Shown here piece by piece: positions 57,999-61,003 of a stretch of 64,000 nt of DNA. The position numbers were made by a program, and so were the translations under genes. The notes beneath the pieces are model-generated. The model was not told the DNA's origin. It searched no databases and saw only the letters and a list, made by a program, of their open reading frames with translations. The number at the start of each line of letters is the position of its first letter. Positions within the stretch are counted from its first letter, which is position 1. Origin of the DNA: Sphingomonas arvum (lineage in GTDB: Bacteria; Pseudomonadota; Alphaproteobacteria; Sphingomonadales; Sphingomonadaceae); NCBI RefSeq assembly GCF_026013565.1, contig NZ_JAPDOB010000002.1, positions 558,001-622,000 on the forward strand. The letters run 5' to 3'.

Positions 57999-58004
57999 GT
58001 CGGG

Positions 58005-59249
58005 TCAGGCGGGCAGGGCGGCAAGCCCGGCCTGCGCACCTGTCAGCGCCGCGCCGCGCCGCGCCAGCGCCGCCGGTACGATCTGGTTCAGCAACACGTC
58101 CATGCTGTGGGTCCAGGTGAACTCGCCCGCCACATAGTCGCGTGCCAGCCGGGCCATTGCCGCCCGGTCGCCGCGCCACACCTCCAGGATGTTGGCCGCC
58201 ATGGCCGCGCTGTCGCCGGCCGGTCCCAGCAGGCCCATGCCCGGCCGCACCCGCTCCGGCATCGCGCCGCCCGCGACGCCGACCACGGGCAGCCCGGACG
58301 CCTGCGCCTCGATGACCGACACGCCGAACGTCTCGTTGGGCATGGCCGACACGTACAGGTCGCTCGACGCCAGCCAGCGCGCCAGCTCCGCCCGGTCCGT
58401 GACAAACCCGGGGGTGACGATCCGCGGATCGCCCAGCTTCGCGACCTGCTCGCGGATCGGTCCCTGGCCCAGCAGCACCAGCTTCGCGCCCAGCTCGGCC
58501 GGCAGCCGGCGGAACGCCTCCACCACGATGTCCGGCCGTTTCTCGATGTCCATCCGCCCGACGTAGATCAGGAGCGGCTGGTCCTCGCCCATGTCCAGTT
58601 CACGCCGCAGCGCCGGATCCCGCCGGTCCGGCCCGAACGCGTCCAGCTCCACGCCCAACGGCAGGATGTGCACCGGGTCGACGCCCAGCTCGTTCAGTTT
58701 GGTGCCCCCGCCGGCATGCGACAGCGCGTAGACCGCGTCGAACTGGCGATAGAGCCGGCGGCAATAACGGTAGCATAGGCGCGCCGCGGCCTCGCCGGCC
58801 GCGCGCCCGAATGCCTTGGAGAATGGCCGCCCAGCATAGACTTCCGGAAAGTCGGTCATGTAGCCGGCCACCAGCGCCGTTTCGGGGTGCCGCTCGCGAT
58901 GGCGCAGCGCCGCCCACGGTAGGTTGTAGGCGTCCTGGCACTCGATCACGTCGGGCGCGAACCGCTCCAGCACGCTCCGCACCGCGCCATTCCTCAGCAG
59001 CAGCCGGTAGTGCGGGCTGAACGGCACGTGCGGGCTCTTCACCCAGGCCGTGATCGCCCGCCCGCCGTCACTCTCCTCCACCGCGTCCTCGGCACCCGGC
59101 AAGATCATCAGGTGGCGGTGCGGGGTATTGGCGATCAGGTGCGCGCGCTTGGCCCGCAGGTAGGTGCCGACGCCGCCGCCGACTGACGACCAGCTCTGGG
59201 TCAGGTCGCACAACAGACGCGGTCGAGAGGCGAGCGGCGCGTGCATCAT
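58005..59249 (-). CDS. Glycosyltransferase family 4 protein
   Basis: A 414-residue GT-B retaining glycosyltransferase. The acceptor domain contains LSHAGGGTKLNELGVDP. The donor domain has IYVGRMDIEKRPDIVVEAF, the Glu-rich ETFGVSVIEAQASGLPVVG (EX7E motif) and GLLGPAGDSAAMA. Sugar and acceptor are unknown. ATG 59249 is preferred. Upstream lies the sigma-54-type region. Confidence 0.9.
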   Translation of the reverse strand: MMHAPLASRPRLLCDLTQSWSSVGGGVGTYLRAKRAHLIANTPHRHLMILPGAEDAVEESDGGRAITAWVKSPHVPFSPHYRLLLRNGAVRSVLERFAPDVIECQDAYNLPWAALRHRERHPETALVAGYMTDFPEVYAGRPFSKAFGRAAGEAAARLCYRYCRRLYRQFDAVYALSHAGGGTKLNELGVDPVHILPLGVELDAFGPDRRDPALRRELDMGEDQPLLIYVGRMDIEKRPDIVVEAFRRLPAELGAKLVLLGQGPIREQVAKLGDPRIVTPGFVTDRAELARWLASSDLYVSAMPNETFGVSVIEAQASGLPVVGVAGGAMPERVRPGMGLLGPAGDSAAMAANILEVWRGDRAAMARLARDYVAGEFTWTHSMDVLLNQIVPAALARRGAALTGAQAGLAALPA

Positions 59250-59291
59250 CGGCAGCAACAACTCACCTGCGCGTTAGTGCCCCGCGCAACC

Positions 59292-59308
59292 TGTCGGAAA
59301 AGCTGACA
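59292..59308. promoter_or_regulatory. Possible activator-binding palindrome upstream of the sigma-54 promoter
   Basis: TGTCGG-N5-CTGACA forms an imperfect inverted repeat with one mismatch, 65-80 bases upstream of the -24 element. The spacing suits an enhancer-binding protein. The activator is unknown. Confidence 0.4.
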
Positions 59309-59372
59309 CTCGGCCATCGGCTGCTGCGGGCTGAAAAGATCAAAAGCCCGGAAAACAGACACTCTCCCAGAA

Positions 59373-59389
59373 TTGGCACGGCCGTTGCA
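59373..59389 (+). promoter_or_regulatory. Sigma-54 (RpoN) promoter, full consensus
   Basis: TTGGCACGGCCGTTGCA matches the -24/-12 consensus YTGGCACGrNNNTTGCW at every position. GG of the -24 is at 59375-59376 and GC of the -12 at 59387-59388, so transcription should begin near 59400 and run rightwards. No plus-strand gene follows. Confidence 0.75.
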
Positions 59390-59399
59390 CCATCATTGC

Positions 59400-59475
59400 C
59401 GTCCACATTGGTTCCACGCCAATCGGAAGGGACGGCGCCGCGGTTCTCTGGTCCCGCGACTGCCGTCCCTTCTTC
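59400..59475 (+). ncRNA. Candidate sigma-54-dependent small RNA
   Basis: The DNA just after the sigma-54 promoter folds into two hairpins. ATTGG/CCAAT spans about 59407-59423. GAAGGGACGGC (59426-59436) pairs perfectly with 59462-59472 and encloses an inner CGCGG/CCGCG stem. No plausible protein is encoded. The weak TTCTTCG run after the long stem is a poor terminator, and the same stem could serve as the terminator of grxD on the other strand, so existence of the RNA is inferred. Confidence 0.45.
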
Positions 59476-59485
59476 GTTGGGGCTA

Positions 59486-59809
59486 TCAGGCCTGCGCTTC
59501 GCCGCTCACCAGCTGCTGCAGCTCGCCGCTCTCGTACATCTCCATCATGATGTCCGACCCGCCGACGAACTCGCCGTTGACGTACAGCTGCGGAATGGTC
59601 GGCCAGTCCGAATATTCCTTGATGCCCTGCCGGATCTCCTGGTCCTGCAGCACGTCGACAGTGTCATAGTCAGCGCCGACCCGGTCCAAGATGGCGATCG
59701 CCCGGCTGGAAAAGCCGCACTGCGGGAACAGCTGCGTGCCCTTCATGAACAGCACCACCGGCTTGGCCTTGACCAGTTGTTCGATCCGGCTCGTTGCGTC
59801 ACTCATCAC
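59486..59809 (-). CDS. grxD: Monothiol glutaredoxin Grx4 type
   Basis: A 107-residue CGFS glutaredoxin. The active site QCGFSSRA (Cys about 32), [32 protein letters not shown] and the GGSDI element bind glutathione and a shared [2Fe-2S] cluster. It works with BolA in Fe-S delivery. It overlaps bolA by 4 bases. Confidence 0.96.
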
Positions 59810-60051
59810 TCATTCTCCGTCTGGGGCGCGGCAGTCTCAAGCTGCAGCGCGTGAAGCTCGCCCCCCATGCGCCCCCCGAGCGCGCGATAGACCAGTTGGT
59901 GCTGGCGGACCCGCGGCATTCCCGCGAACGCCCCGCTCACCACCCGTGCGGCATAATGGTCGCCGTCGCCGGCCAGGTCGCGGATGGTCACCTCCGCGTC
60001 TGGCAGCGCCGCCTTGATCAGGCCCGCGATCTCGTCCGCCGCCATCGGCAT
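59806..60051 (-). CDS. BolA family protein
   Basis: An 81-residue BolA-like protein with [21 protein letters not shown] and the conserved [16 protein letters not shown] segment. BolA proteins bind monothiol glutaredoxins through a shared cluster, and the gene lies directly upstream of grxD, with overlap. The start may be M1 or M3. Confidence 0.93.
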
Positions 60052-60053
60052 CG

Positions 60054-60377
60054 TTACTGCCCGTCCACTAATTGGCGCTTGGCCTCGAGCGTCTGCCCGG
60101 CCAGCGCTTCACGGATCTGCGCCTCGTCCGTGTCGACGCCCGCGCTCGTCAGGTCGCCCAGCAGCTTGCGGATCACGTCCTCGTCACCGGCTTCCTCGAA
60201 ATCGGCCCGGACCACGTCCTTGGCATAGGCCTCGGCCTCGACGTCCGACAGCCCCATCAGCCGCGCCGCCCACAGGCCCAGCAGCTTGTTGCGCCGTGCC
60301 GCCAGCCGGAACTTCATTTCCTCGTCATGCGCGAACTTGGTTTCGAAGGCGCGCTCGCGGTCGTCGAAGGTGGTCAT
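60054..60377 (-). CDS. DUF1476 / ATP synthase zeta-subunit-like protein
   Basis: A 107-residue helical protein beginning MTTFDDRERAFETKFAHDEE, the diagnostic start of DUF1476. In Paracoccus the family member (zeta) inhibits F1-ATPase by its N-terminal helix. It stands first in the DUF1476-bolA-grxD group. Confidence 0.93.
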   Translation of the reverse strand: MTTFDDRERAFETKFAHDEEMKFRLAARRNKLLGLWAARLMGLSDVEAEAYAKDVVRADFEEAGDEDVIRKLLGDLTSAGVDTDEAQIREALAGQTLEAKRQLVDGQ

Positions 60378-60445
60378 TGGCTCCCCTTGGGTTCTGCGTT
60401 GCCTCGCAGATAGGCGGGGAGCGCCCGCGACTCAACCGAAGCCGG

Positions 60446-60934
60446 TCAGGCCGGCGCGAAGCTCAGCGCCAGTCCGTTCATGCAGTAACGCTTGCCGGTC
60501 GGCCGCGGTCCGTCGTCGAACACATGGCCCAGATGCCCGCCGCAGCGCGCGCACAGCACTTCGGTGCGCGCCATCAGCAGGCTGCGATCACTGCGCGTCG
60601 TGACCGCGCCCGGCAGCGGCCGGAAGAAGCTTGGCCAGCCCGTGCCGCTGTCGAACTTGGTCGTCGACGCGAACAGCGGCAGCCCGCAGCCCGCGCAATG
60701 GAAGGTGCCGCGGCGATGCTCCGCATTGAGCGGGCTGGAGAACGGCCGCTCCGTGCTCGCCTCGCGCAGCACGGCGTAGCGCTTCGGACCCAGCTTGCGC
60801 TTCCAATCCGGCTCGGACAGCCGCAGCGGATTGGGCAATTGCGCCGCATCGACCCGCGGCGGCCATGCGACCAGCGCTGCGCCGGATGGGCCGAGCAGGC
60901 CAAGCATGGTGCGGCGATCCAGGGTTGCGCTCAT
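60446..60934 (-). CDS. msrB: Peptide-methionine (R)-S-oxide reductase, Tat-exported
   Basis: A 162-residue MsrB. The N-terminus LDRRTMLGLLG followed by a hydrophobic stretch is a twin-arginine signal. The domain has the two zinc CxxC pairs (CAGCG and CARCG), GTGWPSF, GGHLGHVFDDGP and the catalytic RYCMNG (Cys about 153). It should repair oxidised methionine in the periplasm. Confidence 0.92.
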   Translation of the reverse strand: MSATLDRRTMLGLLGPSGAALVAWPPRVDAAQLPNPLRLSEPDWKRKLGPKRYAVLREASTERPFSSPLNAEHRRGTFHCAGCGLPLFASTTKFDSGTGWPSFFRPLPGAVTTRSDRSLLMARTEVLCARCGGHLGHVFDDGPRPTGKRYCMNGLALSFAPA

Positions 60935-60975
60935 GGCGGTGTAACTCTGCCTAGCGCATTGAACCCGCCGTGAAT

Positions 60976-61003
60976 GGGGGAGCGATGCACCGCTCGCTCC
61001 CCC
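60976..61003 (-). terminator. Hairpin after the fasciclin gene
   Basis: GGGGGAGCGA (60976-60985) pairs with TCGCTCCCCC (60994-61003), a 10-bp stem. There is no T-run, so it is a likely but weak terminator or mRNA stabiliser. Confidence 0.5.

Follow-up and report, generated by a model that had tools for sequence, protein, structure and literature searches.

In the window analysed here (the whole stretch of 64,000 nucleotides, from a Sphingomonas arvum genome of three contigs and 2.75 Mb), a stretch convergent to grxD quite likely encodes a non-coding RNA that is driven by sigma-54 and, most likely, by the response regulator PrsR. Comparison with related genomes shows that a putative unit of upstream box, promoter and RNA is conserved and that the long stem of the RNA covaries. 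The same pair of box and predicted promoter also stands in front of genes that encode PEP-CTERM-like proteins, and the window's genome carries prsK-prsR as well as rpoN.

We argue that PrsR would bind the box at 59292-59308 and, from there, contact the sigma-54 RNA polymerase at 59373-59389. The transcript of about 78 nt would run from 59400-59401 to hairpin 2. The C-rich sites that it exposes (5' GUCCAC, loop UCCAC and loop CUGGUC) could pair with Shine-Dalgarno regions, and such pairing by a trans-acting RNA would block translation of the mRNA; in relatives, mRNAs of DUF4402 surface proteins resemble one such target. The features of the locus are as follows.

58005-59261, minus strand: glycosyltransferase gene, the divergent upstream neighbour (open reading frame; Glycos_transf_1)
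59292-59308, plus strand: upstream activating box TGTCGG-N5-CTGACA, a predicted PrsR site that fits 'motif 1' in the accessible part of Haft 2006
59373-59389, plus strand: sigma-54 promoter (-24/-12) TTGGCACGGCCGTTGCA, the sole perfect match in the window
59400-59401, plus strand: predicted transcription start, 12-13 nt past the -12 C, at the GTCCAC block
59401-59478, plus strand: predicted small RNA of about 78 nt (36 aligned genus copies; z -3.8; Rfam match absent)
59401-59406, plus strand: single-stranded 5' end GUCCAC, six invariant columns in 36 copies
59407-59423, plus strand: hairpin 1 with loop UCCAC (59413-59417), from single folds, nearly invariant
59425-59473, plus strand: hairpin 2, terminator-like, with loop UUCUCUGGUC (59444-59453), from covariation and fold
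59486-59809, minus strand: grxD (monothiol glutaredoxin), the convergent neighbour (open reading frame; Glutaredoxin PF00462)

The promoter, its box and the predicted RNA

The initial annotation had read a full sigma-54 consensus at 59373-59389, and this reading is borne out, as TGGCAC-N5-TTGCW has a single perfect match in the 64 kb. Allowing up to two mismatches gave 28 matches in the window against 29.8 expected, so that the loose sites are chance-like and the perfect one alone stands out. The promoter had been said to drive a gene-free stretch, and our reading of the open reading frames in the window found no gene of its own downstream on the plus strand. Frames through the element are not conserved among relatives: those started by UUG are missing or stop early in several of them, an ATG lies inside the RNA in only 5 of 36, and no conserved small protein was found in the element among these genomes.

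A DNA search with positions 59260-59500 gave a match in 36 of 61 genomes, 34 of which are among the same-genus genomes, 37 in number with that of the window; in these 34 the match spans the RNA fully or partly and often the promoter too. The remaining three were found via the box-promoter pattern and then read, the pattern being stricter than reading by locus and missing some loci, such as that of G007. The palindrome that had been noticed upstream of the promoter is present at 59292-59308 and corresponds to a box conserved in all 37 same-genus loci, where TGTCGG-N5-TTTAC(A/G) ends 64-66 bp upstream of TGGCA. The GTCG and AC columns of the box and the TGGCA and TGC columns of the promoter are invariant; the box varies in having TT or TG ahead of AC and A or G behind it, and the window carries CTGACA. 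The full TGGCAC-N5-TTGCW is retained in 21 of the 37 loci, while TGGCA(C/T)-N6-TGC, and likewise GG at -24 separated by 10 bases from GC at -12, occur in all. Since the GTCCAC block starts 12-13 nt past the -12 C in 37/37 loci, the start of the conserved RNA coincides with that expected for a sigma-54 transcript. With near-fixed spacing in every same-genus locus, the putative box-promoter-RNA unit is more than a chance arrangement. A covariance model of the RNA (R1) also found it in each of the 11 genomes that represent the genus in the family draw. Several same-genus loci (e.g. L005, L025, L058 and L123) showed no glycosyltransferase next to the RNA, and promoter, box and RNA persist there, which answers a comparison that the initial annotation had suggested.

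The two-hairpin fold that had been noticed in the letters also held, with hairpins at 59407-59423 and 59425-59473. The predicted RNA folds at -37.4 kcal/mol (z -3.8), and none of 200 shuffles was equally good; the stem of hairpin 2 comprises 13 outer and 5 inner pairs, G-U counted. Ten single folds, five from the genus and five from other genera, gave z from -1.9 to -7.9 with two of the ten inputs cut 1-2 nt late, and for three of the ten, between 2 and 5 of the 200 shuffles folded equally well. Covariation was assessed in an alignment of 36 genus copies (A3), from which L034, whose contig end falls within the RNA, was omitted. In hairpin 2, 12 pairs were scored; 96.9% of their cells are paired, and 7 of the 12 have changes on both sides. 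The cells changed on both sides number 38, compared with 11.9 +/- 4.9 in shuffles (0/500 as high) and at most 13 when the structure was slid by 1-3 columns, so the pairs of the long stem do covary, as the initial annotation had proposed to examine. 'Further pair types' in hairpin 2 showed no excess over shuffles (183 of 500). Hairpin 1 and the 5' end give no covariation signal because they are nearly invariant.

Rfam gave no match with E up to 1 in positions 58000-61000; across 10 loci, with E up to 0.5, it gave three matches, and the RNA itself was unmatched. Literature searches, in a collection with few subscription journals, turned up nothing about this RNA or about an RNA under PrsR control. 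Taken together, the comparison supports the proposal that an enhancer box and a small RNA form a regulated unit converging on grxD.

Candidate target mRNAs

How the predicted RNA may act is suggested by the start regions of DUF4402 genes. In G021, the loop 2 complement GGGACCAGAAA stands immediately upstream of the start codon (ATG) of a gene for a DUF4402 protein (PF14352, 59 bits). At E up to 1e-8, 47 of 61 same-genus genomes have a relative of this protein, and that of the window has none. Start regions of DUF4402 genes frequently read GTGGGGAACCAAG-ATG, and GGAACCAAG complements CUUGGUUCC, a sequence that most RNA copies have close to their 5' end.

The pairing was tested with 22 group-1 start regions retained from 70 rows, using the genome's own RNA in 13 and the consensus RNA in 9. 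The longest perfect pairing had a mean of 7.2, compared with 4.7 in shuffles and 5.3 in the highest of 200 shuffled-set means; these shuffles were single-base, and several of the start regions, being related by descent, are near-identical. In a post hoc test, a run of at least 7 pairs was present in 11/22 DUF4402 start regions versus 6/140 in a background of grxD, bolA, DUF1476 and glycosyltransferase start regions. Such runs were found in 6 of the 13 regions paired with their own RNA and in 5 of the 9 paired with the consensus; the other 11 of the 22 stayed below 7 pairs. The predicted pairing site is loop 2 in G021 and the 5' part and loop 1 in most of the other start regions. Duplex energies over 48 rows (one start region twice) were mixed, with z from -3.3 to +1.4, and many second genes of tandem pairs were without pairing. 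GUGGGG is itself partly Shine-Dalgarno.

Among L280-L349, an unusual GTGGGGA precedes the start codon of many DUF4402 genes of the genus, in the forms GTGGGGAACCAAG and AAGTGGGGATTT, and some of these genes form tandem pairs. The G021 site came from a search of 8 genomes for the loop 2 complement before a start codon (GGACCAGA-N0-14-ATG), which gave 123 matches and 34 in the reversed control. In the 30 loci and 9 further stretches that were read, most sites appear to fall within longer frames or to precede very short ones, and the G021 site alone was carried further. The recurrent GGACCAGAAGGAAGGCATG site was rejected as a target because it sits within a gene, and a site in G004 before a prohead-protease-like frame (L252) was dismissed as chance.

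Our results would suggest that the sphingomonad RNA probably acts on translation starts. That it does so by pairing with Shine-Dalgarno regions we hold to be an even matter, and that the mRNAs of DUF4402 surface proteins are its target in relatives is a tentative assignment, to which we give slightly less than even chances. The repeated loop motifs (UCCAC and, in other genera, GGUC-like) could instead be protein sites, so that the RNA would serve as a protein decoy or a short cis element and dispense with mRNA pairing. We consider this unlikely, as the complementarity of DUF4402 start regions is above background and the plus strand offers no downstream gene for action in cis.

The PEP-CTERM regulon and PrsR

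That the predicted activator is PrsR is suggested by the box and its spacing. In the accessible part of its text, Haft 2006 (PMC1569441) describes a motif 1 of 17 nt ending in TTTACA, followed by a spacer of 62.8 +/- 10.6 and a -24/-12 element; this layout precedes 99 of 167 proteobacterial PEP-CTERM genes, and a few motif 1 sites also precede other genes. An RpoN-dependent PEP-CTERM gene is reported in the part of PMC9850573 that was available. The box in all 37 same-genus loci fits the description of motif 1, the comparison being with the wording of the paper and not with its logo, and the spacer from TxAC to TGGCA is 64-66 nt in all 37, within the published value of about 63 nt (SD 10.6) as given there.

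Beyond the family, the box pattern gave 15 loci from other families of the order; seven of the 15, first picked by eye for TTTACA-like boxes, precede genes whose products have PEP-CTERM-like tails. The remaining eight sit in frames of at least 150 codons and look like chance, with the possible exception of L042. At L042, a 148-codon frame with no PEP-CTERM-like tail follows a TGGCACGCGCCTTGC promoter and a good box. Together with L171, L185 and L186 from other genera of the family (see below), the seven loci give ten protein genes behind the box-promoter pair, all with PEP-CTERM-like tails. PEP-CTERM, PEPxxWA-CTERM or Xrt-dependent families of NCBIfam are among the matches of eight of the ten proteins, and five (L038, L040, L043, L171 and L185) exceed the family cut-off; in the same search L037 had no match and L044 matched MYXO-CTERM only.

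The window's genome has prsK adjacent to prsR, with PrsK at 451 bits for TIGR02916 (cut-off 300) and PrsR at 670 bits for TIGR02915 (cut-off 502.6). RpoN is present as well, and is above the cut-off in 21 of the 23 same-genus genomes of the draw that was scanned for it. PrsR is above the cut-off in 35/37 same-genus genomes, whereas an exosortase was detected in 12/37, and PrsR is present in 24 of the 25 with no detected exosortase. In the family draw, PrsR has a match (E up to 1e-130) in 336 of 397 genomes, 335 of them above the cut-off. Genomes positive for the RNA pattern have such a match in 44 of 46 cases and negative ones in 292 of 351; the two positive genomes lacking it, G202 and G337, are both at 90% completeness. 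This co-occurrence of PrsR and the predicted RNA discriminates weakly and is weak evidence.

Alternatively, the predicted RNA could be a sigma-54 small RNA activated by an enhancer-binding protein other than PrsR. Another activator is possible given the six Sigma54_activat matches that the window's genome contains, the window's box reads CTGACA, which differs from TTTACA, and co-occurrence with PrsR says little. We regard this as quite unlikely: PrsR, which is nearly always present in the genus, is indicated by the box, by the spacing, and by the fact that PEP-CTERM-like genes share this box.

We would like to point out some further observations on this regulon. In the window's genome, prsK-prsR (L125:7193-10665, C1) lies ~171 kb from C1:375604-376362, where the sole exosortase detected in that genome is located; inspection by eye of the 20 kb around prsK-prsR revealed no exopolysaccharide cluster. 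In G010 the exosortase (G010:C1:2626616-2627384) is in three pieces, one with two in-frame stops, and is either a decayed gene or a product of sequencing errors. A relaxed box pattern gave 19 matches in 6 same-genus genomes; six of the seven loci read lie inside frames, and L235 resembles a second target. This locus (window's genome, C1:623287-623352, minus strand) has a second box and TGGCAC-N6-TGC with a shorter spacer, directly upstream of a short membrane-protein-like reading frame (MAMLRRLGRLFVIRTRWEAW...), and is a possible further PrsR target.

Other genera and known systems

A pattern of box, 55-80 bp, TGGCAC-N6-TG, 12-16 nt and GTCC was found in 46 of 397 family genomes and 12 of 96 genera, and its reversed control had 0 among the matches listed. 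Of 30 pattern loci that were read, 27 lead to hairpin RNAs, including one within the genus, and the other three (L171, L185 and L186) to genes for PEP-CTERM-like proteins. With L156 counted, a divergent RNA-like element is present in at least eight further genera (g75, g28, g63, g117, g99, g97, g98 and g111). Because the pattern itself demands GTCC, the GUCC start is not independent there; the covariance-model matches L141, L142, L144, L145, L148 and L156 have box, promoter and GUCC start independently of it. GGUC was seen by eye in the loop of 18/27 hairpin RNAs. Model R1 matched 42/397 family genomes with E up to 0.001, and many of its weak matches in other genera are hairpins with no promoter.

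In genus g99 (L177-L182), a second strong hairpin lies downstream of the RNA, and its loop mostly carries GUCCC, like a repeated motif. A search of named genomes for the RNA pattern gave 37 records, 20 from Sphingomonas/Sphingomicrobium and 17 from other groups, the latter probably chance. Six records of Massilia, Pseudoduganella and Telluria (L197, L198, L214, L215, L219 and L224) have in common a 23-base match to the RNA-like pattern, possibly conserved coding sequence.

At six loci in other genera (L160, L162, L163, L164, L183 and L184) grxD is not the neighbour, having either no match or a fragment about 1.4-1.5 kb off, and promoter, box and RNA persist there, a second comparison that the initial annotation had called for. 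It had also allowed that the long stem could be the grxD terminator. The stem may indeed end grxD, which converges on it with a stop codon 12 nt past the long stem, and in some relatives the stem has T-rich flanks on both sides; that the hairpin is only this terminator or a shared bidirectional one, and the promoter a relic or a driver of read-through, is very improbable, as it leaves unexplained the conserved box, promoter and 5' GUCCAC, the invariant 5' part and loop CUGGUC that are useless to a terminator, and a unit kept where grxD is not the neighbour.

To our knowledge, few small RNAs have been studied so far in sphingomonads. The unit proposed here would represent a sphingomonad small RNA family with a sigma-54 promoter, most likely under the control of PrsR. 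The proposed mode of action is a familiar one. What appears to be new, within the literature covered, is the family and its position in the PEP-CTERM regulon. If this is true, an RNA joins a regulon so far described via protein genes, PrsK-PrsR gains a task in bacteria with no detected exosortase, and the RNA family offers a candidate target along with an on-switch that is clear and testable. It is conceivable, if rather doubtful, that sphingomonad PrsK-PrsR is mainly a riboregulatory switch, with the small RNA as a core retained output that shuts off DUF4402-type translation when the PEP-CTERM/exopolysaccharide programme is on and that outlives a lost exosortase. Such a switch would explain why many same-genus genomes with no detected exosortase have a 'PEP-CTERM' two-component system.

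Several known RNAs invite comparison. Exposed C-rich loops have been proposed to cover Shine-Dalgarno sites in small RNAs of alphaproteobacteria and Gram-positives; the likeness is in mode only, as sequence and control differ. GlmY acts through RapZ, whereas start-region pairing is proposed here. The name of the sphingomonad RNA SuhB presumably derives from an Rfam family, and the RNA described here matches none. In the accessible text of PMC6563040, SuhB of Sphingopyxis granuli is 61 nt, Hfq-dependent and growth-rate-controlled, and represses translation via binding to a 5' UTR. It is thus like the present RNA a sphingomonad small RNA; that the two are the same finds no support in that description, by which, and not by sequence, we tentatively set them apart. 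GlmY of enterobacteria is activated by QseF and sigma-54 in the part of PMC6075780 available, and resembles the predicted RNA as a sigma-54 small RNA with upstream activating sites and a two-component activator; activator and bacteria differ, and the likeness is one of description and not of sequence. Dv_sRNA2 of Desulfovibrio is, in the accessible part of PMC3333781, a target of the sigma-54 regulator DVU0679, so that there too an enhancer-binding response regulator targets a small RNA. DVU0679 is, however, not the PEP-CTERM regulator; for that of D. vulgaris, DVUA0057, the same part of the source describes protein targets.

The closest match is the PrsK-PrsR regulon itself as worded in Haft 2006 (PMC1569441), to which the box, the -24/-12 element, the spacer and the adjacency of prsK and prsR all correspond. 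It differs in that the predicted output here is an RNA and not a PEP-CTERM protein, and in that this RNA is kept in same-genus genomes with no detected exosortase.
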